A stretch of DNA of 39,692 nt from a virus: positions 1-39,692 of IMG/VR virus record IMGVR_UViG_3300037189_026252; one strand, written 5' to 3'. The translations under genes were made by a program, and so were the position numbers. The notes under the pieces are model-generated. The model did not search any database. It was not told the origin of the DNA and was given only the letters and a program-made list of their open reading frames with translations. Positions 1,680-39,135 of this stretch are shown here, piece after piece (within the stretch, counting starts at the first letter, position 1; the number at the start of each line of letters is the position of its first letter).

Positions 1680-1982
1680 ATGTCATACTTGAATCTACAT
1701 GAATTTGCAAAAACATTCATTCAACAATGTTACGATCATGTTCCTTATCAGTTAGATTTTAATTCAGTATGTCAAGAGATTGAAGATATATTGAATGAGA
1801 AGACTATCTGTGGTGATGATGATGTCACGGGATACTGGGAAATTCGTTATTTTTTTGGCCCACATGATTTGAGCTTTATTAATAAGAATTGGTGGGATAC
1901 TTATAATAACCTATCATATGATCAACAAAAAGAAGTTCATGAATATTTAAAGAATGTTTGGCCTGATACTTGGAGACGATAA
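1680..1982 (+). CDS. Hypothetical protein (100 aa)
   Basis: The product is small, acidic and rich in aromatic residues, ending WPDTWRR, with a GDDDVTGYWEI segment in the middle. No family is recognised. The ATG lies one base after the stop of the 105-residue gene, which implies translational coupling and perhaps a joint function. It is the last gene before the cassette array; the first recurrent intergenic module starts about 80 nt downstream. Confidence 0.6.
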   Translation: MSYLNLHEFAKTFIQQCYDHVPYQLDFNSVCQEIEDILNEKTICGDDDVTGYWEIRYFFGPHDLSFINKNWWDTYNNLSYDQQKEVHEYLKNVWPDTWRR

Positions 1983-2060
1983 CATATTAAATATTAGAAT
2001 TTCATTAGAATCTCATTAGATTTTTATAATGGAGTTTTTATTATACTATAATATAATATT

Positions 2061-2169
2061 GCAGGGTGAGTGACGATCTTTTTTATCATAAAGGTTACAT
2101 CACCTCTCGTTCAATTTTTATATTAAACAAGCATAAGAAGAATTTCTTTTAACTGAAGTCAGTCTAGCA
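2061..2169 (+). repeat. Cassette-array intergenic module, copy 1 (divergent, long)
   Basis: It begins GCAGG (2061) and ends CAGTCTAGCA (2160-2169). The internal stem is AGGT/ACCT (2092-2095 with 2102-2105). At 109 bp it is longer than the other copies because of an AT-rich insertion before the conserved end. Upstream lies an AT-rich run of overlapping TATAAT-like sequence. Confidence 0.6.
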
Positions 2170-2259
2170 GGTTTTGATGGCATTTGGGTATAAGCATCGC
2201 TTATCTGTCATATCAGCAGGACTTATTGATGAATGGTCGCAGTGGCCATTTGAGTGTGC

Positions 2260-2274
2260 TATTCTATGAGAGTC
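2260..2274 (+). promoter_or_regulatory. Cassette promoter of the GP88-like gene
   Basis: TATTCT (2260-2265) is followed after 4 nt by GAGTC. The hexamer ends 27 nt before the ATG. No good -35 box is visible at the normal distance. An inverted repeat, ATAAGC-atc-GCTTAT, lies at about 2190-2204. Confidence 0.45.
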
Positions 2275-2291
2275 ACCAATAAATCCCGGTC

Positions 2292-3047
2292 ATGCTCAAG
2301 TTTTCTTTTGGTAACAGCAAACTTGCTAATGACACTCTGATCTTTAGTCTTCCTGCTGGTCAGACTTGTCCCGGTGCAGATAAATGTCTCGCATTTGTGA
2401 ATATGAATGGGGAAGGAAAGCGATCTATTGTGGATGGTCCACAAATGGAATTTCGTTGTTTTGCTGCTTCTAGTGAGGCAACATATCCTCCTGTTTATAA
2501 TTCTCGCCAGCATAATTGGACTACAATCAAAAATCTTATTAAGAATTTTGGTGTAGGTAAGGCTGGTATTATGGTTGCAGAGTATATTCAATCGATTCGT
2601 AAAAAATCTACCAAACTGGTTCGTATTCACGAATCTGGTGATTTTTATTCGGCGGATTACTTTGCGATGTGGATGCATGTTTGTCGTTTGATTCCTGATC
2701 TGACGTTTTATGCATATTCTAAGAATCTTTCTATGATTCTTGATTATGGCATGGACATGTTGCCTCAGAATTTCTATCTGACAGCATCAAAAGGTGGTAA
2801 GTTTGATAACCTGATTGATGAAGGATTCTTTCCACGTTATTCTGTGGTGGTAAAGAATGATGCTGAGGCAGAGGCAATGGGTCTGCAAGTAGATCATGAT
2901 GATTCACATTGCTATAAACAAGATGCGCCATTTGCTCTTCTGGTGCATGGCATTCAGGCGGCTGGGAGTGAATGGGGCAAGGCAATTCGTGAGCGTAAGA
3001 ATAAAAAACAGTTCACCGGATATAATAAAAATAAAGTCGCAGCATAG
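2292..3047 (+). CDS. GP88-like phage protein
   Basis: This 251-residue protein resembles the phage 'Gene product 88' (GP88) family. Visible hallmarks are an N-terminal FSLPAGQTCPGADKC segment with paired cysteines (about residues 17-33), the core RIHESGDFYSADYFAMW (about 116-132), TFYAYSKN soon after, and LTASKGG. Family function is not established to my knowledge. The conserved Cys and His/Asp residues suggest metal binding or catalysis, but that is inference. The gene has its own promoter 27 nt upstream and a hairpin just after the stop, so it is a monocistronic cassette. Length is typical for the family. Confidence 0.7.
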   Translation: MLKFSFGNSKLANDTLIFSLPAGQTCPGADKCLAFVNMNGEGKRSIVDGPQMEFRCFAASSEATYPPVYNSRQHNWTTIKNLIKNFGVGKAGIMVAEYIQSIRKKSTKLVRIHESGDFYSADYFAMWMHVCRLIPDLTFYAYSKNLSMILDYGMDMLPQNFYLTASKGGKFDNLIDEGFFPRYSVVVKNDAEAEAMGLQVDHDDSHCYKQDAPFALLVHGIQAAGSEWGKAIRERKNKKQFTGYNKNKVAA

Positions 3048-3059
3048 TATGTGATAACT

Positions 3060-3081
3060 GTGCCAGTGATACAACTGGCAC
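3060..3081 (+). terminator. Hairpin after the GP88-like gene
   Basis: GTGCCAGT (3060-3067) and ACTGGCAC (3074-3081) form a perfect 8-bp stem with a 6-nt loop, 13 nt after the stop. There is no strong U-run, so termination is likely but not certain. Confidence 0.55.
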
Positions 3082-3111
3082 ATAAATCTCCCATTCGCTT
3101 TTCCTTTCCCG

Positions 3112-3117
3112 TATATT
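3112..3117 (+). promoter_or_regulatory. Putative -10 element of the gene at 3141
   Basis: TATATT lies 24 nt before the ATG, the same spacing seen for the other array genes. The downstream GAGTC element is absent. Confidence 0.35.
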
Positions 3118-3140
3118 ATTCAAGTAATCAACTAAAACAC

Positions 3141-3452
3141 ATGAACCGGTCACTCATTGTTGTTAAAATCAGACCCAAAATGTTTTGTTCGATTCGATTG
3201 CATTGGGAATATGGTCAAAAAATTGAAGATTGGCTGAATAGTCTGAATCTATCTGAGATTCATGATCTCATTGCTGTAGGTCATCGATCCACAATTAAAG
3301 AATCTTATCGAGCACTTCCTTATACTTTACCTGATGCTGATTGTAAGCATTGGACACATAAAACACTAAAGGAAGCAGTTCTTAACATTGAACATAAAAC
3401 TCTTGCTTATCATAATGGCAAGACATGGAAATTCACTCATAATAATGATTAA
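3141..3452 (+). CDS. Hypothetical protein (103 aa)
   Basis: The start at 3141 (MNRSLIVVKIRPKM...) is preferred over a longer frame beginning at 3051, because the stretch between holds a perfect hairpin and a -10 hexamer 24 nt before this ATG, like the neighbouring cassettes. The protein is mixed alpha/beta and slightly basic, with HWEYGQKIEDWLNSL in the N-terminal third and a basic C-terminus. No family is recognised. Confidence 0.6.
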   Translation: MNRSLIVVKIRPKMFCSIRLHWEYGQKIEDWLNSLNLSEIHDLIAVGHRSTIKESYRALPYTLPDADCKHWTHKTLKEAVLNIEHKTLAYHNGKTWKFTHNND

Positions 3453-3553
3453 ATTGTAGGAAGGAGTTTGCCTTAAAAGTTACTCAATGTGTAGATGTTA
3501 ATATAAAATAGTATGCCTCATTTTTATCGTTTAGTGTAGATGGTTCTTGTTTT

Positions 3554-3583
3554 AAGGAAAGGATTGCCCCTTTCCTTTTTTTT
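3554..3583 (+). terminator. Intrinsic terminator
   Basis: AAGGAAAGG (3554-3562) pairs with CCTTTCCTT (3569-3577) over a 6-nt loop and runs into eight T residues (3576-3583). This is a classic Rho-independent terminator about 100 nt after the stop of the 3141 gene. Confidence 0.85.
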
Positions 3584-3605
3584 ATGTTTATATAATTATA
3601 AATTT

Positions 3606-3677
3606 GCAGGGAAATTGTCGATCATTTAATCATAAAGCCTACTTCGGCTCTCCTTTCCTTGTGACATCATTCTAGCA
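3606..3677 (+). repeat. Cassette-array intergenic module, copy 2
   Basis: It runs from GCAGG (3606) to TCTAGCA (3671-3677), 72 bp. The stem is AGCC/GGCT (3636-3639 with 3646-3649). It follows directly on a terminator and an AT-rich TTTATATAATTATAAA run. Confidence 0.65.
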
Positions 3678-3754
3678 CCTTCCAGCGGCTTCTGTGAGCC
3701 TCTGGTGATCAGTGTTGCTTATGAGTCGAATCAGCAATGCTTATGAATAAATGC

Positions 3755-3783
3755 TTGACTTTGGAATCGTTATGCCTTATTCT
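3755..3783 (+). promoter_or_regulatory. Sigma70-type promoter of the 60-aa gene
   Basis: TTGACT (3755-3760), a 17-bp spacer and TATTCT (3778-3783) sit 26 nt before the ATG. It is one of the few array promoters with a good -35 box. TCAGCAATGCTTAT lies just upstream (3731-3744), a motif also found at 2213 and 9245. Confidence 0.65.
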
Positions 3784-3808
3784 ATGAATGTAGAAACGCA
3801 TCAGATTC

Positions 3809-3991
3809 ATGAATCAATCATTCTGCATGGCTTCGGATATTGAAACTCGTGCCACGATGTGGGCCGCGATTCATACTGACGGCACACCGATTTACGTACA
3901 GCCTTGTGAACCACTTCTGTTTGATTCGGTGTGTTTAGCAAGTCTTTATGCAAATCTTCACTCTCGCTTCAATTACGATCCTTTTTCGTAA
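3809..3991 (+). CDS. Small hypothetical protein (60 aa)
   Basis: MNQSFCMASDIETRATMWAA begins a short protein with no recognised domain. A second in-frame ATG at 3827 is also possible; 3809 was preferred because it fits the 24-30 nt promoter-to-start spacing of the array. Three cysteines and a hydrophobic C-terminal third are the only notable features. The following gene starts 40 nt later with no obvious terminator between, so the two may be co-transcribed. Confidence 0.55.
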   Translation: MNQSFCMASDIETRATMWAAIHTDGTPIYVQPCEPLLFDSVCLASLYANLHSRFNYDPFS

Positions 3992-4031
3992 TCAAAAAGT
4001 TTAATTCTAAATCAACTATTCCTTATTTGTC

Positions 4032-4670
4032 ATGCTTACTCCTATTCAATTCAAGCGAAACTTCTACCAAATGGTGAAGGAAATTGAAGACAAAAGTCTT
4101 CAGGCCCTTTATGGATTTGCGGAGGAACTTGCTTCTCAAGTTTATCTCCGTGCTCATGAGTTTGATGCACAAATCACTCAATTTCAGTGGAACAATCTGG
4201 TTAAAACGTGTTCGGTAATTGCGGCTAATACAAATCGCTTTTATATGAACTCATATCATGATGCTTACAGGTCTGAGTGTGGTACAACTCATTGTCTTGC
4301 AGGTTGGGCAATCTCGTTGCTGTTGAAGGATACTAACTATGATGATTCCCAAGTAGGCAAACTATTGATTGTACTGGAGAATTACACTGCTGACACGGGA
4401 CGATTTTTTAGTGAATATTCCGGTCCGAATAACTCTCAAATTGGTGCATTTTTGTTGTCGCAATATGTAAAGCCTTTCTTTCATATTACCAACAGAAATA
4501 TATGGCAAGATAATCAACTTGCACTTAACAATACGGCCGAGGAATTGGTTACCAAATATCTCATCAATCCTGTACTGGAAGAAGCTAAACGTGAAAGCTA
4601 TGAATTGACTACTGAAGTACAACAATTCATCGAACGTGCCGGAAACAAAATTGAATGTGGTATTAAATGA
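4032..4670 (+). CDS. CGTTHCLAGWA-motif protein, paralog A (212 aa)
   Basis: The protein opens with MLTPIQFKRNF and contains SECGTTHCLAGWAISL (about residues 83-98), then FLLSQYVKPFFHITNR (about 142-157). All three blocks recur in the gene at 5553, so the two are paralogs. The Cys-Gly-Thr-x-x-Cys-x-Ala-Gly-Trp signature occurs in uncharacterised proteins of bacteria and phages. Its Cys and His residues could bind metal or be redox-active, but no function is known to me. A strong terminator follows. Confidence 0.7.
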   Translation: MLTPIQFKRNFYQMVKEIEDKSLQALYGFAEELASQVYLRAHEFDAQITQFQWNNLVKTCSVIAANTNRFYMNSYHDAYRSECGTTHCLAGWAISLLLKDTNYDDSQVGKLLIVLENYTADTGRFFSEYSGPNNSQIGAFLLSQYVKPFFHITNRNIWQDNQLALNNTAEELVTKYLINPVLEEAKRESYELTTEVQQFIERAGNKIECGIK

Positions 4671-4706
4671 TTAAATCAAAAGAATATACAGTTTGAAAAC
4701 TGGCAC

Positions 4707-4732
4707 AAGGGGAGCTTTCCGGCTCCCCTTTT
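4707..4732 (+). terminator. Intrinsic terminator
   Basis: AAGGGGAGC (4707-4715) pairs with GCTCCCCTT (4722-4730) over a 6-nt loop and ends in a T-run. It closes the 4032 cassette and lies immediately before the promoter of the next gene. Confidence 0.8.
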
Positions 4733-4737
4733 CACGC

Positions 4738-4743
4738 TACAAT
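4738..4743 (+). promoter_or_regulatory. Putative -10 element of the gene at 4768
   Basis: TACAAT ends 25 nt before the ATG. The terminator stem overlaps the position where a -35 box would lie. Confidence 0.4.
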
Positions 4744-4767
4744 TCTTTTGTTCATCACAGAACTCCA

Positions 4768-5304
4768 ATGTCCTACACACAATTCATCGGAACTGCTACT
4801 CTGACGGTTGATGAATCGTTTGATCTTGATTCTTTTCTGAAAAGTCTTTCTGATCTTTGTATTCAGGAAGAAAACTTCATTTATGAAGAGTATGGGGCAG
4901 TGAATGGAGAAATTGATCTTCATTTTACAAAGTTTGTCTCTCGTAGTGGCAATGAAATCGAGATTGATGTAGATACCGAAGAATACAATAGCAACAGTGA
5001 AGTTTGGGATTGGCTGATTGATCAGTTTGCTCCTATCATGACTTCCGATCTTATGCAGATCAAATCTTCCTTGATTTGCAGTCGGAATGGTACTGAATCG
5101 TGTGTTGCTTATGTGACCAAAGATAAACAACAAATCAGTCAAGATGATCTTATTCAAAATTATCTTAAAGATGTTTCTACTCTTGATGTGATTCAAAGGA
5201 TTCTGGACACATACGATAAAGCGGAAATGTCGGAATCTGATCATGAAAATGCACTCTGGGCGATTGCAATGATTAAACATGAAATGAAGAATCGAAAAGA
5301 ATAA
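4768..5304 (+). CDS. Hypothetical protein (178 aa)
   Basis: The start at 4768 (MSYTQFIGTATLTVDESFDL) is chosen over 4693, because the longer frame would read through a perfect terminator hairpin and the promoter. The protein is acidic. Its N-terminal half alternates like a beta-sheet domain and its C-terminal half (from about residue 120) looks helical. No family is recognised. It is a monocistronic cassette ending in a perfect-palindrome terminator. Confidence 0.6.
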   Translation: MSYTQFIGTATLTVDESFDLDSFLKSLSDLCIQEENFIYEEYGAVNGEIDLHFTKFVSRSGNEIEIDVDTEEYNSNSEVWDWLIDQFAPIMTSDLMQIKSSLICSRNGTESCVAYVTKDKQQISQDDLIQNYLKDVSTLDVIQRILDTYDKAEMSESDHENALWAIAMIKHEMKNRKE

Positions 5305-5323
5305 ATCACAAGTAAAACAATCG

Positions 5324-5347
5324 GGAGCCAAATTTGGCTCCTTTTTT
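5324..5347 (+). terminator. Intrinsic terminator (18-bp palindrome plus T6)
   Basis: The sequence at 5324-5341 is a perfect palindrome with GGAGCC and GGCTCC arms, followed by six T residues. Confidence 0.8.
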
Positions 5348-5369
5348 ATTGTTTATATCTTATAATTCT

Positions 5370-5439
5370 GCAGGCGAAATGTCCTGTTTTGTGTTGTGGC
5401 GGTTTCCCGCTTTCCTTGTTTGTTGAATACAGTCTAGCA
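5370..5439 (+). repeat. Cassette-array intergenic module, copy 3 (70 bp)
   Basis: It runs from GCAGG (5370) to TCTAGCA (5433-5439). Stem 1 is CAGG/CCTG (5371-5374 with 5383-5386) and stem 2 is GCGG/CCGC (5399-5402 with 5407-5410). An ATG at 5379, directly after GCAGGCGAA, opens a 15-codon frame MSCFVLWRFPAFLVC ending at TGA 5424-5426. Confidence 0.7.
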
Positions 5440-5519
5440 TGGCACAGCCGGCCCCGTGACCAACCCCGACCAGTTTTCTAACTGTCCACCACCAGCCCCG
5501 GTTGCCAGTTTCTAGGTTG

Positions 5520-5534
5520 TATACTAATTGTGTA
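5520..5534 (+). promoter_or_regulatory. Cassette promoter of paralog B
   Basis: TATACT (5520-5525) lies 28 nt before the GTG start. It is preceded by a block containing TAACTGTCCACC and GGTTGCCAGTTT that recurs with variation before the genes at 6172, 7213, 7792 and 8377. No canonical -35 box is visible. Confidence 0.5.
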
Positions 5535-5552
5535 GACAAGGATTTCTCTCTC

Positions 5553-6086
5553 GTGCTTACTCCTCTTGATTTTCAGCGCAACTTTAATCAAATTATTGCA
5601 GAAATTGAGGCCAAAGATCTTCCCGTCAACACTATTTGCCCACAAGAGAATTACAAAAATATTCTTGCTAATGTAACGGAAACAGATACTTTCACTGCAT
5701 ATCAGTGGTGGAAGCTGGTCAGAGTTTGCCGGGTGATCAAAGAATATGAAACTCGGTTTTCAATGGATGATTGGCATCATAAAAAAGATTGCGGAACAAC
5801 ACATTGTCTGGCTGGTTGGGCAATTGCTCTAGAATATGGTGATATCGATATTGATGATATTGATGTGTATGATCGCAGGATGCTTGTTCCTGATGATTAT
5901 GTGGAGGATGAATATTTGAGCACAACCGAGACTGCTGTGTTTTTTCTATCAAAATATACTCAACCATTCTTTTACTTCACGAATCGAGCTGATGGTTTTA
6001 ATAAAGATGCAGAGAGGTTGGTCATGAAATACTTTATCGAGCCCATCATTCAAGAAGATGATAAAGATAAGCTCAACAGCTTCTGA
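5553..6086 (+). CDS. CGTTHCLAGWA-motif protein, paralog B (177 aa, GTG start)
   Basis: The GTG at 5553 was chosen because the product then begins (M)LTPLDFQRNF, matching the start of paralog A, and because it lies 28 nt from the promoter. A frame open from 5502 would include promoter sequence. The signature KDCGTTHCLAGWAIAL is present, followed by a very acidic insert (DIDIDDIDVYD) and FFLSKYTQPFFYFTNR. The sequence has diverged from paralog A outside these blocks, so the duplication is old or the copies were acquired separately. Function is unknown. Confidence 0.7.
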   Translation: MLTPLDFQRNFNQIIAEIEAKDLPVNTICPQENYKNILANVTETDTFTAYQWWKLVRVCRVIKEYETRFSMDDWHHKKDCGTTHCLAGWAIALEYGDIDIDDIDVYDRRMLVPDDYVEDEYLSTTETAVFFLSKYTQPFFYFTNRADGFNKDAERLVMKYFIEPIIQEDDKDKLNSF

Positions 6087-6136
6087 ACCACTTCGATAAC
6101 TGTCTACCGGTAACCACGGTTGCCGGTTTAATTTTC

Positions 6137-6151
6137 TAAAATAACCAAGTC
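6137..6151 (+). promoter_or_regulatory. Cassette promoter of the gene at 6172
   Basis: TAAAAT (6137-6142) is followed after 4 nt by AAGTC, 30 nt before the ATG. Upstream TAACTGTCTACC and GGTTGCCGGTTT match the block before paralog B. Confidence 0.45.
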
Positions 6152-6171
6152 AACCACTTTTCTTTCGAAAA

Positions 6172-6603
6172 ATGCTCGTCAATCCTCAGGCCATGGAAAA
6201 TCTGACCAAAAATGTAGATTGGGCCGAAACGATTCAACAACTGAAGGAGACTGATCCTGCGTCTTATGAATCTCTTCTTAATCTTCTGTTTTCTTCAGTT
6301 CAACCAGTTTACAAAATCGAAATCAAACAAGACTACAATCCAGTAAAAACTATTGATCCTCAGTTGATTCAAACTTACGACTTCGTTGTAACTGCGGTTA
6401 AAAATACCGTGAATGGCAGGTGTGTCGATAGCTCTAGGCTGTCCGCAATCAAGGCTTTTCGTTCTGAGTTTGGTGTGTCTCTCAGGAATGCACAAGACTG
6501 TGTTTATAAAATGATGGAAATGTATAAAAATAATCCTGACTGTAGTTTTATGTATTATTATAAAACCGGTGGTGATATCGACATTAGCTCCCATGCCCAG
6601 TAA
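6172..6603 (+). CDS. Protein with an L7/L12-C-terminal-like segment (143 aa)
   Basis: Residues about 81-110 (SRLSAIKAFRSEFGVSLRNA followed by QDCVYKM) resemble the helix-turn-helix core of the ribosomal protein L7/L12 C-terminal domain, pattern K-x-x-V-I-K-x-h-R-x-x-x-G-h-x-L-K-E-A-K. That surface contacts translation factors in L7/L12. Such segments also occur in small unrelated bacterial and phage proteins. The N-terminal 40 residues are a separate, probably helical, acidic region. The whole protein is therefore not a ribosomal protein; a role in contacting the host translation or proteolysis machinery is inference. An unusual nested inverted repeat follows the gene. Confidence 0.6.
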   Translation: MLVNPQAMENLTKNVDWAETIQQLKETDPASYESLLNLLFSSVQPVYKIEIKQDYNPVKTIDPQLIQTYDFVVTAVKNTVNGRCVDSSRLSAIKAFRSEFGVSLRNAQDCVYKMMEMYKNNPDCSFMYYYKTGGDIDISSHAQ

Positions 6604-6605
6604 AA

Positions 6606-6689
6606 GCCTCTAGAAGGCCCTTCTACGCTGAATCATGGGCCATCCTAGACAGGATGGCTTTTTCATGCCTTCTAGGGCCTTCTAGAGGC
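6606..6689 (+). repeat. Perfect 16-bp inverted repeat enclosing a terminator
   Basis: GCCTCTAGAAGGCCCT (6606-6621) is exactly complementary to AGGGCCTTCTAGAGGC (6674-6689). Between the arms lies a terminator hairpin. The 84-bp structure can fold as one long nested hairpin. It resembles no other intergenic region in the window. Confidence 0.75.
6639..6663 (+). terminator. Intrinsic terminator inside the inverted repeat
   Basis: GCCATCCT (6639-6646) pairs with AGGATGGC (6651-6658) over a 4-nt loop and is followed by five T residues. Confidence 0.8.
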
Positions 6690-6745
6690 CATGTGCCAAT
6701 CCTGAAAGTGCACACAAATCACCTGGCTTCACCGTCAACATGCTG

Positions 6746-6760
6746 TAGAATAAGGGAGTC
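6746..6760 (+). promoter_or_regulatory. Cassette promoter of the 62-aa gene
   Basis: TAGAAT (6746-6751), 4 nt, then GAGTC (6756-6760). The hexamer ends 27 nt before the ATG. Confidence 0.5.
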
Positions 6761-6777
6761 CCAGACAAATTCGGATC

Positions 6778-6966
6778 ATGAGTAACAACCTTTATCTGGA
6801 AAATGGATACGCTAATCGTCGAGAGTATCTTGATTCTCTTCGTGAAGACTATGGTGATCTGGTTGATGTTTTGATTAGTGTTCTTCCTGCATCGGAAGAT
6901 TTTGATGGGTTGATTACTGAACTGGAAGATGCAAAGGAGTCGGGATTATATGAAGATTTGATCTGA
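6778..6966 (+). CDS. Small phage/bacterial hypothetical protein (62 aa)
   Basis: The sequence NGYANRREYLDSLREDYGDL and PASEDFDGLITELEDA follows a pattern I recognise from short uncharacterised proteins in many phages and bacteria (NREEYL..LA.DYG.....LLGP.EDFDGL...LED). It is acidic and probably all-helical. Function is unknown. It is a monocistronic cassette with a GAGTC-type promoter upstream and a hairpin 8 nt after the stop. Confidence 0.65.
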   Translation: MSNNLYLENGYANRREYLDSLREDYGDLVDVLISVLPASEDFDGLITELEDAKESGLYEDLI

Positions 6967-6973
6967 TTCTTTA

Positions 6974-6996
6974 CCCCGAGTTTCTTATACTCGGGG
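6974..6996 (+). terminator. Terminator-like hairpin
   Basis: CCCCGAGT (6974-6981) pairs perfectly with ACTCGGGG (6989-6996) around the loop TTCTTAT. The following T-run is weak. A near-identical hairpin follows the gene ending at 8133. Confidence 0.65.
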
Positions 6997-7027
6997 TTCG
7001 CACTATTCTTTATAGTGTAACATAACT

Positions 7028-7100
7028 GCAGGAGAAGTTTCTTATTTTTTATCATAGAGCTTTCCGGCTCTCTTTTTCGTTTGTTGAATATAGTATAACA
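7028..7100 (+). repeat. Cassette-array intergenic module, copy 4
   Basis: It runs from GCAGG (7028) to the degenerate end TATAACA (7094-7100). The stem AGAGC/GCTCT (7056-7060 with 7067-7071) is followed by CTTTTTCG, so this copy is terminator-like. The leader frame here would start at GTT and meets TAG after six codons. Confidence 0.65.
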
Positions 7101-7181
7101 CAGCATAAGCGGCAGCCGTGAGCCCCGTGGGACAGTTCTCTAACTGGCACAAGGACAGCCAGAGTTCAGGTTTTCGTGTTC

Positions 7182-7196
7182 TATACTAATAAAGTC
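7182..7196 (+). promoter_or_regulatory. Cassette promoter of the 108-aa gene
   Basis: TATACT (7182-7187), 4 nt, then AAGTC; the hexamer ends 26 nt before the ATG. The upstream 50 nt (TAACTGGCACAAGGACAGCC, AGGTTTTCGTG) closely match the region before the gene at 7792. Confidence 0.5.
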
Positions 7197-7212
7197 CCAA
7201 AGACATCTGATC

Positions 7213-7539
7213 ATGGCTTACAAGGATTATCGTCCTGAAACTCGCAGCCTGTTCAAGAGACTCAAAGAGCATGATTTCTCTCTGAGTGCCGTCAACAATG
7301 GCGAAGAATGGGTAAAACTCAGTGATGTCGGTGATAGGGAGTTTCTGGAAGAAACTGTTGCTGCTGATGATGCAGTTGTCACGGTTCGTTATACTGATGG
7401 CAAGCGTTACAAACTGTACCTGGTTTTCGGAAACTGTCCGGGTGAATTAGTTTGTGATTGTTCGTCTTTTGATCCACTAAGTGTGGTTGTTGATCAACAT
7501 GCTGATAAGTGGGAAAATCGCAAACAACCCACACGATGA
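7213..7539 (+). CDS. Phage hypothetical protein (108 aa)
   Basis: The core LYLVFGNCPGELVCDCSSFD followed by a VVDQHADKWENRKQPTR tail matches a pattern I recall from uncharacterised proteins of phages and plasmids (L.L.LGN.PGELV.D......V.D.H...W..RKQP). An N-terminal helix precedes a beta-rich core. Function is unknown. The ATG lies 26 nt after a -10 hexamer, and a terminator follows, making this a clean single-gene cassette. Confidence 0.65.
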   Translation: MAYKDYRPETRSLFKRLKEHDFSLSAVNNGEEWVKLSDVGDREFLEETVAADDAVVTVRYTDGKRYKLYLVFGNCPGELVCDCSSFDPLSVVVDQHADKWENRKQPTR

Positions 7540-7560
7540 ATTAAAATCAAATAATAAACA

Positions 7561-7583
7561 TCCCCGAAAGGGGATTTATTTTT
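7561..7583 (+). terminator. Intrinsic terminator
   Basis: TCCCC (7561-7565) pairs with GGGGA (7570-7574) around a GAAA tetraloop, followed by a T-rich run. Confidence 0.65.
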
Positions 7584-7607
7584 TATTCTTTATAGTATTA
7601 TTAAAGT

Positions 7608-7681
7608 GCAGGTGAAATTTCTTATTTTTTATTATAGAGGATTTCGCCTCTCGATCTTCGTTTGTTGAATATAGTCTAACA
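7608..7681 (+). repeat. Cassette-array intergenic module, copy 5
   Basis: It runs from GCAGG (7608) to TCTAACA (7675-7681). The stem is AGAGG/CCTCT (7636-7640 with 7647-7651); relative to copy 4 the closing pair has changed on both sides (C/G to G/C). The leader frame would start at ATT, meets TAG at codon 7, and its end is out of register with the other copies. Confidence 0.65.
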
Positions 7682-7760
7682 GGCTGGCCAATGTTTTCGT
7701 GGTCCCCTTGTGCCAGTTTTTAAGTGTCACAAGGGCAGCCAGGGTTTAGGTTTTGTGCCC

Positions 7761-7775
7761 TAGGATGATGAAGTC
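7761..7775 (+). promoter_or_regulatory. Cassette promoter of the gene at 7792
   Basis: TAGGAT (7761-7766), 4 nt, then AAGTC. It aligns base for base with the promoter region at 7182 and ends 26 nt before the GTG start. Confidence 0.45.
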
Positions 7776-7791
7776 CCAAAAGAAACTGACT

Positions 7792-8133
7792 GTGAACGAA
7801 ACCGAGCTTCAACAGCAAATCGTTTCCCAAGCAAATACGCACGGAAGCTATCTGATGCAGGCTGAGTTTGGTGGGTTGATTGATGAAGCATGTGCATCCA
7901 ATTGGTTTCAACTTCGGGATGAAGGTGTTGCCACTCTCGATGAGATTTTCACTGAGCATTTTCTCCCCTGGGTGAAAGGTTACGTTTACTATTCCGCCCT
8001 GGTTTGTTCATGTAAAGATGAGCAAGAAGTACTCGTTCAGTTGCGTGAAGATTTTGATGAACTTTATTTCATCTGGTCAAAAGAAGCGCAAGAGTTGATG
8101 AATCAAGAACTCGAAGATAATGAGTTGATGTGA
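7792..8133 (+). CDS. Hypothetical acidic protein (113 aa, GTG start)
   Basis: The GTG at 7792 was chosen by aligning the leader with that of the 7213 gene, whose ATG falls at the same place. The longer frame from TTG 7753 would translate the -10 element. The protein is acidic and helical. It has a possible central globular part (FGGLIDEACASNWFQL, then HFLPWVKGYVYYSALVCSC) and an acidic tail ending ELEDNELM. No family is recognised. Confidence 0.55.
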   Translation: MNETELQQQIVSQANTHGSYLMQAEFGGLIDEACASNWFQLRDEGVATLDEIFTEHFLPWVKGYVYYSALVCSCKDEQEVLVQLREDFDELYFIWSKEAQELMNQELEDNELM

Positions 8134-8143
8134 CAAATCGTGG

Positions 8144-8166
8144 CCCCAAGTTTCTTATACTTGGGG
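8144..8166 (+). terminator. Terminator-like hairpin
   Basis: CCCCAAGT (8144-8151) pairs with ACTTGGGG (8159-8166) around the same TTCTTAT loop as the hairpin at 6974. One base pair differs and is compensated on both sides. Confidence 0.65.
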
Positions 8167-8197
8167 TTCACTATATTCTTTATAGTATTATTAAAAT

Positions 8198-8267
8198 GCA
8201 GGAGAAATGTCCTGTTTTGTATTATCACGCTTCTGCGCTTTCTTCGTTTGTTGAATACAGTCTAGCA
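8198..8267 (+). repeat. Cassette-array intergenic module, copy 6 (70 bp)
   Basis: It runs from GCAGG (8198) to TCTAGCA (8261-8267). Stem 1 is CAGGA/TCCTG, and stem 2 is CGC/GCG (8228-8230 with 8235-8237). An ATG at 8207, two bases after AGGAG, opens the 15-codon frame MSCFVLSRFCAFFVC, with its stop at 8252-8254. Confidence 0.7.
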
Positions 8268-8347
8268 CACCTGAAGCCCAACTGCGAGTCACTGTGGCCA
8301 GTTTTCTAACTGTCCACCAGCAGCCACGGTCGGTGGTTTCGGTGCTC

Positions 8348-8362
8348 TATGATGATGGAGTC
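8348..8362 (+). promoter_or_regulatory. Cassette promoter of the 230-aa gene
   Basis: TATGAT (8348-8353), 4 nt, then GAGTC (8358-8362). The hexamer ends 24 nt before the ATG. It is preceded by CCACC...GGTGG inverted-repeat sequence. Confidence 0.5.
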
Positions 8363-8376
8363 GCAAACAACCGGCC

Positions 8377-9069
8377 ATGAAAAAGTATTCTGTTACGCTT
8401 CGTGAACATGAAGAATATGGCGAAATTGGCCTAGTTGTAGATACTCGGCGGGGCTATTTTGAGCCTGCTATTAGTGGATTGCAGTGTGCTCACGATATAA
8501 TCGAGCACCCCGTAAAACCTCATTGTGATGGATATATTGACGAACTAATGGCTCTGGGTGGAGTTATTGCAGGAAGAATTGCCTATGGTTGGTCTTTTAA
8601 GTATGGCACAATCAATCTGGATGATATTAAATCGGACATCTCTTCTCTGGCTACTTCTGCTTATCACGAGCAGTGCGATTTCGTGAATGATGAATGCAAC
8701 AATACACTGAAAGATAAAGATTTGGTTCAATCTATCCGAAACATGGTTCGTGATGGATTAATTGAAGCAATGGGAGAATATAATGGCGACTACATTAATC
8801 CTGTCATGAATAAGTCCGACTTTCAGCAATTAGTGGAAGAGAAGTATAACATAAATCGCATTGTTGCATGGATTTGTAAGGGTTATCAGACATACAAAAA
8901 GAGATTCGCTAACATACAAGAATATACGATTCAAAATATTTTCAGTGAGATTCAGCGAGTGTGTGATAACTTTATCAAGAATGGAATTCAGTATCAGCAA
9001 GCTACTTTGTGTGTTGATTTTACCAACGGTCGTGTATATTTACAGGAAGAATATGAAGATGATTATTGA
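8377..9069 (+). CDS. Hypothetical protein (230 aa)
   Basis: This is one of the largest products of the array. The N-terminal half reads GLQCAHDIIEHPVKP and DELMALGGVIAGRIAYG, an alpha/beta pattern with a conserved-looking HD-x(2)-EH cluster at about residues 39-43. That cluster could hold a metal but does not match a known nuclease or HD-domain spacing. The C-terminal half is helical with a YQTYKKRF segment and ends in a very acidic tail. I do not recognise the family. It has its own promoter and a strong terminator. Confidence 0.6.
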   Translation: MKKYSVTLREHEEYGEIGLVVDTRRGYFEPAISGLQCAHDIIEHPVKPHCDGYIDELMALGGVIAGRIAYGWSFKYGTINLDDIKSDISSLATSAYHEQCDFVNDECNNTLKDKDLVQSIRNMVRDGLIEAMGEYNGDYINPVMNKSDFQQLVEEKYNINRIVAWICKGYQTYKKRFANIQEYTIQNIFSEIQRVCDNFIKNGIQYQQATLCVDFTNGRVYLQEEYEDDY

Positions 9070-9087
9070 TAACAATCAATATCAAAG

Positions 9088-9118
9088 ACTCTGAGATTGT
9101 TATGCTCAGAGTTTTTTT
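9088..9118 (+). terminator. Intrinsic terminator
   Basis: ACTCTGAG (9088-9095) pairs with CTCAGAGT (9105-9112), followed by seven T residues. Confidence 0.85.
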
Positions 9119-9143
9119 GTATTCTTTATAATGTAACATAACT

Positions 9144-9213
9144 GCAGGAGAAGTGTCCTGTTTTATGTTATCACGCTTCTGCGCTTTCCTTGTTTGTTGA
9201 TAACAGTCTAGAA
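9144..9213 (+). repeat. Cassette-array intergenic module, copy 7 (70 bp)
   Basis: It runs from GCAGG (9144) to TCTAGAA (9207-9213). It is almost identical to copy 8. The leader frame starts with GTG at 9153 and reads (M)SCFMLSRFCAFLVC, with its stop at 9198-9200. Confidence 0.7.
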
Positions 9214-9301
9214 CAGCCACAAGGGAAACGGGGGAATTCATCGATCAGCATTGCTTATCAATTCAATTTCGTTTTATGTAGCAGTTGATACCGTTACATG
9301 C

Positions 9302-9339
9302 TTGCGGCATTCAAACCAGTCGGTTATGCTTAGGGAGTC
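9302..9339 (+). promoter_or_regulatory. Sigma70-type cassette promoter
   Basis: TTGCGG (9302-9307), a 17-bp spacer and TATGCT (9325-9330), followed after 4 nt by GAGTC. The hexamer ends 26 nt before the ATG at 9356. TCAGCATTGCTTAT (9245-9258) lies upstream. Confidence 0.55.
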
Positions 9340-9355
9340 CAAAACAAAAAGCGTC

Positions 9356-9691
9356 ATGACTTTCACTCTTCCTTCCGTACTGGTTTCGGATACGATTGAA
9401 CAGCTTATGAGCCACTTGGCTACAGCTGAGAGAGCAAAAAAAGAAGCTGAGGAAGAATATGAACGGCTGCGTAAAGAATTGAAGGAAATTATGATTGCTG
9501 GGGAAATAACTACACAAAAAACTGTTTGGGGTACTGCTACTCTATGTGAAGGCCGCAAAAGCGTGACTTACTCTAAATCAATTATATTGCGAGAGGCTAA
9601 GCTCAAGGCGGCAAAAGAGATTGAAGAACTGAAAGGTAAGGCTAAAGTCACGCACGGTGAAAAATCAATTCGTACAACTTGGGTGAAGTGA
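9356..9691 (+). CDS. Coiled-coil phage protein (111 aa)
   Basis: The start at ATG 9356 (MTFTLPSVLVSDTIEQLMSH) is set by the promoter spacing; a longer frame from TTG 9251 would include the promoter. Residues about 15-47 (ATAERAKKEAEEEYERLRKE) form a long charged coiled coil. A small beta-like domain (GTATLCEGRKSVTYSKSII) follows, then a second short helix rich in Lys/Glu. The layout recalls siphophage Gp157-type or Gam-type coiled-coil proteins, but the sequence is too generic to assign. It ends before a 14-bp-stem terminator. Confidence 0.6.
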   Translation: MTFTLPSVLVSDTIEQLMSHLATAERAKKEAEEEYERLRKELKEIMIAGEITTQKTVWGTATLCEGRKSVTYSKSIILREAKLKAAKEIEELKGKAKVTHGEKSIRTTWVK

Positions 9692-9711
9692 AATATAACT
9701 AAAAAATGACT

Positions 9712-9750
9712 GAATGGCTGTGGGTGTTATACTCACAGCCATTCTTGTTT
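9712..9750 (+). terminator. Strong terminator hairpin
   Basis: GAATGGCTGTG (9712-9722) pairs perfectly with CACAGCCATTC (9734-9744). The stem extends inward by three more pairs, one of them G-U, and is followed by TTGTTTG. Confidence 0.75.
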
Positions 9751-9773
9751 GCTATTGTTTATATTATTAAAGG

Positions 9774-9843
9774 GCAGGAGAAGTGTCCTGTTTTATGTTA
9801 TCACGCTTCTGCGCTTTCCTTGTTTGTTGAATACAGTCTAGCA
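9774..9843 (+). repeat. Cassette-array intergenic module, copy 8 (70 bp)
   Basis: It runs from GCAGG (9774) to TCTAGCA (9837-9843). The leader frame starts with GTG at 9783 and encodes the same 15 residues as copy 7, with its stop at 9828-9830. This is the last copy; the array ends one or two genes later. Confidence 0.7.
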
Positions 9844-9942
9844 CAGCACAAGCGGTAGCGGCGAGGCATCGTAACAATCTGTAACAATAGAAATTTTATA
9901 GTGTCTTAAGATTTGGACCCGCTGAACCGGTTCCCGGTAGTG

Positions 9943-9948
9943 TAGAAT
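9943..9948 (+). promoter_or_regulatory. Putative -10 element of the AbrB-like gene
   Basis: TAGAAT ends 25 nt before the ATG at 9973, and GGGCACCAAAC replaces the usual GAGTC region. The directly repeated GTAACAAT (9871 and 9881) lies upstream. Confidence 0.4.
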
Positions 9949-9972
9949 ATGAGGGCACCAAACATCAATCCG

Positions 9973-10377
9973 ATGAACACCAAAATCACCGGTCAAGATC
10001 TCATCAATTATCGGGAACATTGGAAGGCCCAAGGTGCAACCAATGCCGGCATTGTTCGTGCTGCTGGTTATATCACGATTCGTAAAGATGGCACACAGCG
10101 GCTAAACTTTACTGAATTTTACGAAAACATTCTCATTGCACGGGGTAGAATGTGGAGAATCACTGTAAACGTAGCCGAAAATACTTCGGCTGGAGCACAA
10201 CCAATCTGGAGTGATTCGTTCACCACAAGTAGCCGAAGTGCAAGAAGTGTCGCCCATAAAGTAAGGGCATTGACTCATCTTACTGGGGCTCGTTGTAAGC
10301 GAGTCGTGGAGAATGGCGTGGTGAAACTTTATCCTTACCGTTCGAATCAAATGGTAGCCTACAATCTGCCTGCATGA
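9973..10377 (+). CDS. AbrB-like transcriptional regulator of cyanobacterial type
   Basis: The segment KITGQDLINYREHWKAQG...VRAAGYITIRKDGTQRLNFT...FYENILIARG (residues about 3-60) matches the pattern of cyanobacterial AbrB-like proteins and their cyanophage relatives (TG..L...........AC GY....K.G..R.N...FY..ll.AKG). Those proteins bind DNA and act in nitrogen and carbon regulation in cyanobacteria. The C-terminal half (about 61-134) is beta-rich and not recognised. ATG 9973 is preferred to ATG 9949, because the latter begins directly after the -10 hexamer and could not be on the transcript. It may regulate host or phage promoters, possibly the array itself (inference). Confidence 0.65.
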   Translation: MNTKITGQDLINYREHWKAQGATNAGIVRAAGYITIRKDGTQRLNFTEFYENILIARGRMWRITVNVAENTSAGAQPIWSDSFTTSSRSARSVAHKVRALTHLTGARCKRVVENGVVKLYPYRSNQMVAYNLPA

Positions 10378-10388
10378 TGTAAACAATC

Positions 10389-10432
10389 GTGGCCCACAGT
10401 ATAATGTACTTGGGCCACACAATCGTTTTTTT
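10389..10432 (+). terminator. Intrinsic terminator with a -10-like sequence in its loop
   Basis: GTGGCCCA (10389-10396) pairs with TGGGCCAC (10411-10418); the inner AGTA/TACT can pair too. Seven T residues follow (10426-10432). TATAAT (10400-10405) spans the inner stem and loop and could serve as the -10 of the next gene, whose ATG is 39 nt away. Confidence 0.7.
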
Positions 10433-10443
10433 CTCTATTAATT

Positions 10444-10815
10444 ATGAAAGGCATTCTCTGGTTAGCACTCGATTCATACACTTTCCCGGTTGAGTGTATC
10501 TACAATCCCGTACAACATCTGCACGTTACACTTGAATACGGGGTGAATTACGAAAGTTGTGACTTTTTAATTGGCCGTAAAGTAGAAGTAATTGCAGTTT
10601 CTAACTGTTGGAATGATAAGGTACAAGCACTGCGAGTCAATCTTCCTCCTGAGTATGCGGCTATCTGCGACAATGTGCATCCTCATATGACTATCTCAAC
10701 CGCTGATAATGTTCGCCCGGTTGAGTCTAACAATATGTTGAGTGGTGAATATAATGAACTCGCAGTACAAATCGTGATGCAGACTACCGTAGATTTTATT
10801 ACATTAATGAAGTGA
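10444..10815 (+). CDS. 2H phosphoesterase-like protein
   Basis: Two H-x-T motifs, LHVTL (His27/Thr29) and HPHMTIS (His81/Thr83), are the catalytic pair of the 2H phosphoesterase superfamily. The spacing and surrounding pattern (W-L-A-L-D at the N-terminus, KVQALRVNLP before motif 2, PVESNNMLSGEY after it) resemble phage RNA-repair-like 2H proteins. The superfamily includes RNA ligase/cyclic phosphodiesterases and the anti-CBASS enzyme Acb1 of T4. Possible roles are cleavage of 2',3'-cyclic phosphate RNA ends or of cyclic nucleotide signals; sequence alone does not decide. At 123 residues it is compact but has both halves of the fold. Confidence 0.7.
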   Translation: MKGILWLALDSYTFPVECIYNPVQHLHVTLEYGVNYESCDFLIGRKVEVIAVSNCWNDKVQALRVNLPPEYAAICDNVHPHMTISTADNVRPVESNNMLSGEYNELAVQIVMQTTVDFITLMK

Positions 10816-11358: not shown

Positions 11359-12243
11359 ATGGCAAAAGGTTTTAGTGTGAAGGCGAATAATCCCACTCCT
11401 CAGGATGAACCATGGGATTATGGGAAAATCAAAGAAAAGATGAGAGGTAAAAAAATAGTTTTTTGTTTACCTGGTAGAAATTGCTCTTATACTTTCTTAA
11501 AGAGTTTTGTTCAACTTTGTTTTGATCTAGTACAAAATCAAATGAGTATTCAGATCTCTCAAGATTATAGTTCCATGGTAAACTTTGCTAGATGTAAAGT
11601 TCTAGGAGCAAACGTAACAAAAGGCCCATGGCAAGATCCTTGGCAAGGACAACTTGAATATGACTATCAGTTATGGATTGATAATGACATTGTTTTCAAT
11701 TCTGAAAAGTTTTGGCAATTGTGTGATCTAATGGTAAAAGATTCTCCAGTTGAAAAAGACTTTGATGTGAAAGAATATCCGCTATGGGATATTTCTGATG
11801 AAGAATTATACAATATGAATAAATCAGACTTTACTGTAAGAAGAGAGAGAATTCGTCGGTTGAATAAACTGGCAAATCCAATCGTAAGTGGTTGGTATTC
11901 TACTGAAGATGGTAGAACTACTTCCTGTGCTCATTGGTTAGAGGCTGATGACTTCATTAAAAATGGTGGAGTTATGAATCATGAAACCATAGAAAGTATC
12001 AGTAAGAGAAATAAACCTTTCACGGTTGATTATGTGGGTGGTGGTTGGATGATGGTAGCCAAAGGAGTTTTTGAATGTATGGAATATCCTTGGTGGGGAC
12101 CAAAGCTACAGACGTTTGAAAATGGTATTCAAGACTTTTGTGGAGAAGACGTTTCATTCTGTCTAGATGCAAAAGACCTAGGCATTGATATTATTGTAGA
12201 TCCTCGTGTTCGTGTTGGTCATGAAAAAACAAGAATTCTGTGA
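11359..12243 (+). CDS. GT-A-type glycosyltransferase
   Basis: After an N-terminal tail of about 28 residues, KKIVFCLPGRNCSYTFLKSF starts a Rossmann-like strand-helix unit. The DxD motif is DND (residues 108-110, in WIDNDIVF), which would bind the metal and nucleotide-sugar. Later VDYVGGGWMMVAKGVFE and FCGEDVSFCLDAKDLG give the usual Gly-rich acceptor region and the E-D pair. The protein ends DPRVRVGHEK, so it looks complete at 294 residues. Similar enzymes lie near structural genes in T4-like cyanophages and may modify virion proteins or other targets; the acceptor is unknown. A GGA-type ribosome-binding site precedes the ATG. The last 23 nt overlap the inserted endonuclease gene. Confidence 0.75.
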   Translation: MAKGFSVKANNPTPQDEPWDYGKIKEKMRGKKIVFCLPGRNCSYTFLKSFVQLCFDLVQNQMSIQISQDYSSMVNFARCKVLGANVTKGPWQDPWQGQLEYDYQLWIDNDIVFNSEKFWQLCDLMVKDSPVEKDFDVKEYPLWDISDEELYNMNKSDFTVRRERIRRLNKLANPIVSGWYSTEDGRTTSCAHWLEADDFIKNGGVMNHETIESISKRNKPFTVDYVGGGWMMVAKGVFECMEYPWWGPKLQTFENGIQDFCGEDVSFCLDAKDLGIDIIVDPRVRVGHEKTRIL

Positions 12244-12757
12244 TTTCGGCGCTCTGCGCGAAATTAAAAACTGGCCTGGGTATTTCCTTCATATTAGTGA
12301 AACTGGAATTGACATTTATTCCACTCGGCATAAACCAAACTCATATTATAAAATGAAGCTTCAGGTGAATACAGGGGGATACCTGATAGTGGGGCTAACT
12401 CGTACGGATACAATCCAAAAAAAAGTGAGACTTCATCGCTTGATTGCGGAAACTCTAATTCCTAATCCACATAATCTAGAATGTGTAGACCATATTGATG
12501 GAAATAAATTAAATAATTTTCCATCAAATCTCCAATGGATTACCAATAGAGATAACACATTAAAAGCCAATGCAATGGGTTTATGGGGAACTCCTCCCAA
12601 AAAGTATCAAATTCATCATGAAGATGGAAGAGTTCAAATCATAGAAAATGCACGTAAATTTGCAAGAGATCATGGCTACGATAATTCGAGCATTATTTCG
12701 ATTGCCAATGGCCGTCGCAATCGACACTACGATATTATAAAAGTAATTACATTATGA
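12221..12757 (+). CDS. HNH homing endonuclease (NUMOD4-HNH-NUMOD1 layout)
   Basis: REIKNWPGYFLHISETG (about residues 14-30) is a NUMOD4-type DNA-recognition segment. HRLIAETLIPNP, VDHIDGNKLNN and NLQWITNRDN make up the HNH_3 nuclease core with its catalytic histidines. The C-terminal part (about 125-170, ENARKFARDHGYDNSSII, SIANGRR) is a NUMOD1-like helix-turn-helix. This is a free-standing mobile endonuclease. It starts inside the end of the glycosyltransferase gene and stops in an ATGA overlap with the next gene, so it has slipped between two genes without breaking either. GTG 12206 in the same frame is an alternative start. No ribosome-binding site is visible, so it may depend on coupling to glycosyltransferase translation. 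Confidence 0.85.
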   Translation: MKKQEFCDFGALREIKNWPGYFLHISETGIDIYSTRHKPNSYYKMKLQVNTGGYLIVGLTRTDTIQKKVRLHRLIAETLIPNPHNLECVDHIDGNKLNNFPSNLQWITNRDNTLKANAMGLWGTPPKKYQIHHEDGRVQIIENARKFARDHGYDNSSIISIANGRRNRHYDIIKVITL

Positions 12758-12909: not shown

Positions 12910-13330
12910 TATAGAAGAATGGTTAATCAGAGTCTCTGAAGTTCGTCCCGAACTCGGAGGCTTTTCTATATGTCCTTTTGCCAAAAAAGCAAAATATAAG
13001 ATATTGAATATCGATATTGATAAAATTTATCCTATTGAAAACTATGACGTCATCATTTATGTGATTCAAGAAGAGAATTTAGATATCATTAATTCGTGGG
13101 TTCAATTTTATAATCAAAAATATTCGGAATGGCTTTTCTTTGAGGACTGTGCTTCTTATGATACATTCATAAATGGCGTTCAGACAAATAATGGCCTACA
13201 CAATTTAATTCTAGGGCAACCTAAAGAAGAACTTAAAAAATTTAGAGAAATATTGAAGAAGACGAATTACTACTCCTATTGGTCTCAAGAATACTATAAC
13301 GAAATTATGAGTTCGGCTTCCGAATCATAG
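12881..13330 (+). CDS. Conserved phage hypothetical protein (about 149 aa)
   Basis: The start is uncertain. TTG 12881, which follows TTGAGGAAA, gives (M)NTEDRVRIDIEEWLIRV. The frame is open back to ATG 12800, but that extension overlaps the acidic 51-aa gene and reads as a low-complexity basic peptide. The core SICPFAKKAKYKI is reminiscent of the 'CPFA' motif of DUF1415-type proteins. WLFFEDCASYDTFINGVQTN and NYYSYWSQEY follow. Function is unknown. Its last 26 nt overlap the end of the convergent minus-strand gene. Confidence 0.6.
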   Translation: MNTEDRVRIDIEEWLIRVSEVRPELGGFSICPFAKKAKYKILNIDIDKIYPIENYDVIIYVIQEENLDIINSWVQFYNQKYSEWLFFEDCASYDTFINGVQTNNGLHNLILGQPKEELKKFREILKKTNYYSYWSQEYYNEIMSSASES

Positions 13331-13682
13331 TATCTGAAACTGAAAAATCTTTATTTCTTCCTTTATTTGAAACAAAGCCAAATCTTTTATAAAAAGTATC
13401 TAATTTCTTTTTATATCTTGGTTCGGATTGTTGTGAAAGAGTTATTCTCTGTTTTTGTTTATCGGCTGACTTAGTTAACCCTTTCATGAATTTAGAGCCA
13501 ATTCCCTTTCCTCTTAATTCTTTTGGAACTTCTAACGAATGTAATTTCACATCACCTTGATGGCTGTTCACCACATGAGCCTTCATGCCAGGATATTTTC
13601 TCTCATAATTACGACCAATTGTGATATGTGCATCCTGTTTTGGTGATTTGCCTTCTTTTATAAACTGTGAATATGTCTTCAT
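13305..13682 (-). CDS. Internal head protein-like GNAT acetyltransferase (copy 1)
   Basis: The first 11 residues, MKTYSQFIKEG, match the capsid-targeting sequence of T4 internal proteins (MKTYQEFIAE). FIKE|G fits the gp21 prohead protease cleavage rule (hydrophobic-x-Glu, then a small residue). The remainder is a GNAT fold: SLEVPKELRGKGIGSKFMKG (about residues 49-68) is motif A with an intact R-G-K-G-I-G acetyl-CoA loop, and YKKKLDTFYKRFGF is the typical motif B end. I infer a protein packaged in the head and released into the host. The ATG overlaps the stop of the upstream paralog, and the gene is last in a late operon. The 3' end overlaps the convergent plus-strand gene by 26 nt. The acetylation target is unknown. 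Confidence 0.72.
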   Translation of the reverse strand: MKTYSQFIKEGKSPKQDAHITIGRNYERKYPGMKAHVVNSHQGDVKLHSLEVPKELRGKGIGSKFMKGLTKSADKQKQRITLSQQSEPRYKKKLDTFYKRFGFVSNKGRNKDFSVSDTMIRKPNS

Positions 13683-28660: not shown

Positions 28661-28706
28661 TCTATAAGTACTAAATCCTAAATATGCCCAAATTTCTAAG
28701 AATAAA

Positions 28707-28714
28707 TATAAATA
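28707..28714 (+). promoter_or_regulatory. T4-type late promoter of gp8
   Basis: A perfect TATAAATA ends 20 nt before the gp8 ATG, in the only sizeable gap (73 nt) of the structural operon. Confidence 0.7.
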
Positions 28715-28733
28715 ACTAATAAAATACACAAAG

Positions 28734-30314: not shown

Positions 30315-30320
30315 AATATT

Positions 30321-38057: not shown

Positions 38058-38059
38058 AC

Positions 38060-38290: not shown

Positions 38291-38313
38291 ATAGTAATAT
38301 ATTGTAAAAACCA

Positions 38314-39132: not shown

Positions 39133-39135
39133 AAT

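Follow-up and report, generated by a model that had tools for sequence, protein, structure and literature searches.

Promoter-early stem-loops (PeSLs) reportedly occur in the T4-type phages RB49/Phi1, PST/T4, and nt-1/KVP40. Their features reportedly include a strong sigma70-like early promoter, a stem-loop that serves as terminator, and encapsidated mini-circles that arise when neighboring units recombine. A published account describes the PeSLs of T4-type phages as composite promoter/stem-loop units mediating modular shuffling, and judges PeSL-type shuffling to be unlikely in the ORFanage of S-PM2, a variable region of small ORFan genes in a marine cyanomyovirus (PMC4503421). Here, we describe a repeated intergenic module in an array of small genes in the window, i.e., the whole 39,692-bp stretch of the IMG/VR virus record IMGVR_UViG_3300037189_026252. 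The window, a T4-like Synechococcus phage fragment, is nearly colinear with, and 97% identical to, Synechococcus phage B23 (MN695335; Kyanoviridae; 243.6 kb). Based on comparisons with related phages, the locus, which lies upstream of gp25/gp6 in T4-like (Kyanoviridae) cyanophages, is very probably a hyperplastic region in which self-contained cassettes of predicted early genes are separated by the module, and the module would serve as shared recombination homology.

As with PeSLs, composite units of a stem-loop and a promoter (the latter predicted here) lie between the ORFan genes of a hyperplastic region, each phage has 7 to 12 copies of the unit at one locus of ORFan genes (predicted early genes), and insertions, deletions, and swaps between relatives are bounded by the units, as seen here in breakpoint comparisons. 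The stem-loop is present in the form of terminator-like sites and a covarying hairpin, with termination being predicted. Unlike PeSLs, the units described here belong to Kyanoviridae, are restricted to a single locus, and contain, between terminator and promoter, a constant module with a covarying hairpin of its own that is unrelated in sequence to the RB49/Phi1 elements. R1, the sequence model of the module that we used for genome searches, had 0 matches in RB49, Phi1, and S-CRM01. The initial annotation of the window proposed that the module follows the logic of PeSLs with a distinct sequence, and this is apt as an analogy. Because R1 had no match in RB49/Phi1, we refer to the module as a PeSL-like, sequence-unrelated cyanophage variant and not as a homologous member.

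Other viral systems share some of these features. In the haloarchaeal virus HGTV-1, a TATA-like and inverted-repeat motif precedes most left-end open reading frames (ORFs) and has been proposed to drive shuffling (PMC3950731). The likeness lies in a repeated TATA-like element with an inverted repeat ahead of many ORFs; however, HGTV-1 is an archaeal virus and the role there was proposed by analogy, whereas the role of the cyanophage module is backed by breakpoints in relatives. In the T4-related Campylobacter group II phages CP21/CP220, repeat units of ~72 to 86 bp have been linked to rearrangement (PMC4546147); there, long repeat blocks part genome modules of 28 to 55 kb, whereas in the cyanophage array single copies part gene cassettes. 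S-PM2 and marine Syn1 share with the array phages a variable region of small ORFan genes, which in Syn1 also lies upstream of gp25; according to the Syn1 annotation, its genes are packed so tightly that such units would hardly fit.

In the window, the eight module copies are all on the plus strand, and GCAGG begins exactly at the first position of each, in agreement with the initial annotation. Copies 1 to 8 map to 2061-2169, 3606-3677, 5370-5439, 7028-7100, 7608-7681, 8198-8267, 9144-9213, and 9774-9843, respectively, giving lengths from GCAGG to TAGCA of 109, 72, 70, 73, 74, 70, 70, and 70 nt and confirming that five copies are 70 to 72 bp. Copy 1 is divergent, has a 37-nt insertion, and is 100% identical to its B23 orthologue. 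R1 recovers all eight copies (E values from 1e-24 to 6e-7); copies 1 and 2 were matched by both nhmmer and R1, and copies 4, 7, and 8 are among the R1 matches. The pattern GCAGGNNARRTNTN{32,62}TTGAATAYAGTMTARYA matched five of the window copies, and 100 dinucleotide shuffles gave no match.

Loss, transfer, and reordering of cassettes in related phages

The comparison set of ~10 phage contigs included the window, B23, G001 (127-kb contig), G002 (249.8-kb contig), and G003 (14-kb contig), together with further contigs identified by a pattern scan. Window positions 20000-39692 are 97.9% identical to B23 over their full length, and the left part of the window matches B23 in pieces only. Gene families (K numbers) were clustered on proteins with trimmed starts. 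The start codons of small array genes are uncertain.

Two cassettes have joints that could be located within or at modules at base resolution. One complete cassette (window 7688-8173), flanked by module copy 5 on the left and copy 6 on the right, is missing from B23. At this site, B23 has a sole module, which follows window copy 5 up to GCAGGT and window copy 6 from GTCCTG on. Because the B23 module consists of copy 5 sequence followed by copy 6 sequence, the joint lies within the first ~15 nt of the module. The second cassette encodes a DUF7717 protein of 162 amino acids that is 99.4% identical in G001 and G002, the core DNA of which is 73.5% identical. This high identity sets in inside or just after the left module and extends as far as GCAGG of the right one. 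Since other DUF7717 relatives (345 phage records, mostly cyanophages) are less than 60% identical, this near-identity is best read as the result of a recent transfer.

G001 and G003 are 97.5% identical in their core DNA, yet several of their array proteins are only 33 to 77% identical or missing. The order of the array genes also varies, being K11-x-K12-K3-K4 in the window, K11-K12-K3-K4 in B23, K12-...-K31-K11-K3-K4-K3 in G001, K12-...-K31-K28-K4 in G002, and K29-x-K4-K11-K3-K3 in G003. Hence, when gene content between modules is compared among these relatives, the flanking genes are not in a constant order.

We mapped the ends of segments with at least 90% identity within the arrays (n = 38 ends, which are not fully independent because the contigs are partly related). 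Thirteen of the 38 ends fell inside a module versus 5.2 expected (P = 0.0006), and 26 fell inside the terminator-module-promoter unit versus 14.0 expected (0 of 5,000 randomizations). Moreover, mismatches between the window and B23 affect 7.3% of the alignment columns in modules versus 3.2% elsewhere (Fisher P = 6e-6). The modules are more divergent than the rest because the hairpin in some orthologous copies is that of a paralogue. For instance, the hairpin of window copy 3 differs from that of the orthologous B23 copy, which has the hairpin of paralogous copies in a conversion-like pattern. Gene conversion between modules would produce such excess divergence.

These comparisons show that cassettes are lost, gained, replaced, and reordered at a repeated homology formed by the module together with the preceding terminator tail and the following predicted promoter region, that these changes occur both within and between phages, and that the module copies themselves are mosaic. 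The enrichment of breakpoints in modules and the two cassettes with module-bounded joints largely bear out the initial suggestion that the module may act as a recombination handle for gaining and losing genes.

Distribution and anatomy of the intergenic unit

R1 detected 7 copies in the whole 243.6 kb of B23, 8 in G002, 12 in G001, and 9 in G003, confined in each genome to one locus of ~6 to 12 kb. In total, 63 distinct copies were found in the ~10 contigs. The expectation that the module would recur elsewhere in the genome and in relatives therefore holds for the relatives, while within a genome the copies are restricted to a single locus and not scattered. Of the 50,697 named phage records, B23 alone contains the module; weak matches in Prevotella and Campylobacter phages were rejected as AT-rich chance matches. 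In 257 Gb of bacterial genomes, there were 9 single scattered matches, which is approximately the number expected by chance (expectation estimated by hand). The array is always located upstream of a conserved block comprising a phrog_1574 protein weakly similar to glycosyltransferases, an HNH endonuclease, a minus-strand cluster, gp25, and gp6.

From 5' to 3', the intergenic unit follows a gene and consists of an intrinsic terminator, an AT-rich block (block A), the module, and ~100 nt ending in a predicted host-like promoter ahead of the next start codon. The module itself begins with GCAGG and a conserved block around GTTTTATGTTATCACG, followed by a hairpin (hairpin C), a pyrimidine-rich stretch of variable length, and TTGnnnnnAnnnTAgcA. 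The initial description of the module as ~70 bp thus applies to the constant part, whereas the functional unit is longer, with the ~22-nt AT-rich block upstream and the ~100-nt gene-specific promoter region downstream.

A scan of window positions 1900-10500 identified 21 terminator-like sites versus 5.5 ± 2.6 in shuffled sequences. Intrinsic terminators precede modules 2 (3554-3577), 3 (5323-5342), and 5 (7560-7575), all found by the terminator scan, as well as module 7 (9088-9112); terminator-like hairpins precede modules 4 (6973-6997) and 6 (8143-8167), and a terminator hairpin detected in the scan precedes module 8 (9712-9744). All are on the plus strand. That a module usually comes right after a terminator is therefore mostly correct, except for the copy at 2061, which is preceded by a weak AT-rich hairpin only. 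The hairpins at 6973-6997, 8143-8167, and 9712-9744, as well as many in L012, L014, and L016, have in common a GAGTTTnTTATACTC-like apex on a variable stem, which gives the terminators the look of a second repeat family.

Block A (TTTATAnT) lies at 8174-8197 (+) before module copy 6, with equivalents at 2040, 3584, 5347, 7004, 7584, 9120, and 9753. Its TATAnT is present in 54 of 62 copies versus 32% in shuffled sequences. We considered a T4-like late promoter and rejected this because the late genes of B23 have TATAAATA/ATAAATA, which block A lacks.

Hairpin C, exemplified by CGC-TTCT-GCG at 8228-8237 (+) in module copy 6, has a 4- to 6-bp stem and an equivalent in nearly every copy. At least 4 Watson-Crick pairs form in 79% of the 63 copies versus 9% of shuffled copies, with many different stem sequences and mostly pyrimidine-rich loops. 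The covariation score was 0.409 versus 0.149 in shuffles (0 of 500; 23 distinct copies), and the covariation was lost when the partner was shifted by 1 to 3 columns. Hairpin C is under structural constraint. A 5' hairpin (CAGGA/TCCTG) is well paired in B23-type copies only, and RNAalifold detected no compensatory changes in it.

The ~100 nt downstream of the module are of several interchangeable types, at the end of which a GGGTC/GAGTC motif comes after a host-like -10 element. By eye, TTGAC-17-TATnnT was seen after several modules. Predicted sigma70-like promoters on the plus strand include TTGACT-17-TATTCT after module 2 (3755-3783), found in a promoter scan that overall was not above chance, and TTGCGG-17-TATGCT after module 7 (9302-9330), found by eye.

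Genes of the array and its borders

From left to right, the seven inter-module intervals contain 2, 3, 3, 1, 1, 1, and 1 genes. Single-gene cassettes, as initially described for the whole array, are therefore found in four of the seven intervals, those in the right half, while the first three have two to three genes each. All array genes listed here are on the plus strand. The left half contains a gene of the GP88 family (PF17338; 2292-3047), a family K10 gene without a database match (4032-4670), a gene without a counterpart in B23 (4768-5304), a second family K10 gene (5553-6086), and a gene with no assigned function (6172-6603). The two K10 genes are the one pair among otherwise unrelated genes, as noted initially. 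Further right are the cassette genes K11 (7213-7539), which has other neighbors in G001 and G003; a 126-amino-acid ORF of uncertain start (7753-8133), absent from B23 and without a match in 50,697 phage records; K12 (8377-9069), which has other neighbors in G001 and G002; K3 (9356-9691), with a weak match to phrog_434; and K4 (9949-10377). Functions could be assigned by match for the GP88 gene, a UvrD-like helicase gene in G001, and the DUF7717 gene, and most other cassette genes are without an assigned function. Beside the UvrD-like helicase cassette, G001 and G003 have inverted module copies (L014, 7269-7525; L012, 12849-12954, plus strand versus minus-strand neighbors).

On its left side, the array locus is flanked by a gene for a GDSL-like lipase/acylhydrolase (362-1027; PF13472, E value 1.6e-15). 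The right border is formed by the gene for the HNH endonuclease (12206-12757, +), which is kept beside the array in relatives. The protein has 183 amino acids in the window versus 391 to 397 in G001, G002, and G003, to which it is only 33 to 35% identical, suggesting replacement or truncation at a fixed place.

Downstream, tandem minus-strand genes (window 13305-14277 and equivalents in L017/L012) encode proteins with a shared start, MKTY(K/S/R)(Q/E)F(I/M)xE, and unrelated remainders; one of these (13305-13682) has a GNAT domain (PF13508, E value 6.8e-07), and the GNAT copy is missing from B23. T4 internal proteins carry capsid-targeting leaders, and the shared MKTY start suggests, by analogy, a common targeting leader on swapped cargo. 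Two virion-region genes are unusually big for T4-like phages, i.e., 16881-25418 (2,845 amino acids; gp7-like baseplate protein in the B23 annotation) and 30321-38057 (2,578 amino acids; unannotated).

Mechanism and alternative explanations

In the mechanism that we propose, each cassette would have its own host-type promoter and intrinsic terminator, both predicted, and neighboring cassettes would share the composite unit, with the module as its constant part. We infer that the phage forms the joints through its own homologous recombination, acting on module copies either in one genome or in two coinfecting genomes; the B23 annotation includes UvsX-like and gp46/47-like proteins. Because each unit would end one transcript and start the next, exchange would leave working genes, and a transferred cassette would arrive ready for expression. 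More tentatively, the module may also be kept as a regulatory element insulating neighboring transcription units, in which a short hairpin and its pyrimidine-rich tail come after a -10-like, AT-rich block.

Several points weigh against this mechanism. A sigma70 consensus scan returned 25 sites versus 23.6 expected, i.e., no enrichment, and block A and the gene-proximal promoters are predicted only. The gene at 4768-5304 was lost from B23 between two AAATGA sequences and not via a module, its end and terminator remaining in B23, and a G003 cassette was lost from G001 between CTATG microhomologies, one located in a promoter and the other in an inverted module. These deletions at 5- to 6-bp microhomologies, beyond a module or at its margin, imply that the array also changes by illegitimate recombination; gene loss via the module, as initially proposed, is seen for the cassette at 7688-8173, while some array losses used such microhomology instead. 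In addition, recombination at modules may follow passively from the sequence being repeated instead of being an evolved function, and kinship among several of the compared contigs keeps the number of independent recombination events modest.

The module could alternatively be primarily a regulatory RNA or small-RNA gene, in which block A is the promoter of a ~50-nt RNA that is terminated by hairpin C with a T-rich tail, and shuffling is a side effect of the many copies. The compensatory changes that keep hairpin C, the conserved TATAnT ahead of GCAGG, and the T-rich tails after hairpin C in G001/G002 types agree with this idea. However, no Rfam family matched at gathering score, a pseudoknot between the hairpin C loop and the 5' purines was unsupported (P = 0.12), and the tails of B23-type copies are poor terminators. 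Overall, we regard this explanation as rather unlikely. A leader peptide encoded by the module in a GTG TCC ... frame can be ruled out with near certainty. The position of the GTG is constant in 43 of 63 copies, and the commonest window copies have an open frame of 15 codons, but the other two frames are open more often (52/63 and 49/63 versus 36/63), and there is no codon-position periodicity.

Two further explanations concern the origin of the joints and of the repeats. If a dedicated recombination or homing enzyme, e.g., the HNH endonuclease beside the array, acted at the module to cut or join cassettes, the locus would be an integron-like platform actively capturing and exchanging ready-to-express cassettes among cyanophages. 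The HNH gene adjoins the array in the window, B23, G001, G002, and G003, modules are limited to the array locus, and a few copies are inverted. Nevertheless, HNH genes are common in T4-like phages, the protein is only 32 to 35% identical between B23 and the others, and the joints are scattered across the unit instead of coinciding at a single base pair, making such an enzyme very improbable. The array is like an integron in that mostly single genes alternate with recombination sites of ~60 to 140 bp carrying conserved structure, and differs in having a predicted promoter for each cassette and joints spread over the unit. Inspection of the module copies by eye did not reveal attC core boxes (RYYYAAC/GTTRRRY) at constant places; GTTGAAT is present in B23-type copies only, and the G001/G002 types have TTGTTTATAG there. 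No integrase or IntI tyrosine recombinase is present in the B23 annotation, no profile search having been made. The integron comparison fails because there are no constant attC boxes and no annotated integrase. We give still less credence to the repeats being remnants of an element resembling a miniature inverted-repeat transposable element that inserted between genes and has no role in cassette exchange. Such an origin would fit multicopy, intergenic repeats that occur in both orientations in some phages, but the copies are confined to one locus in genomes of 244 to 250 kb, always lie between a terminator and a predicted promoter, have a conserved hairpin, and contain breakpoints of gene exchange; moreover, no empty site marking a simple insertion turned up, although no systematic search for such sites was made.

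Recombination between module copies as the source of the joints is directly testable because ~10 genomes of natural experiments and a named isolate, B23, are available. In metagenomic cyanophages, R1 can help to delimit accessory genes that are exchangeable, e.g., candidates for host takeover. The array bears on the question of how T4-type phages acquire and discard ORFan genes: in this clade of cyanophages, a module of unrelated sequence appears to do the job of PeSLs.

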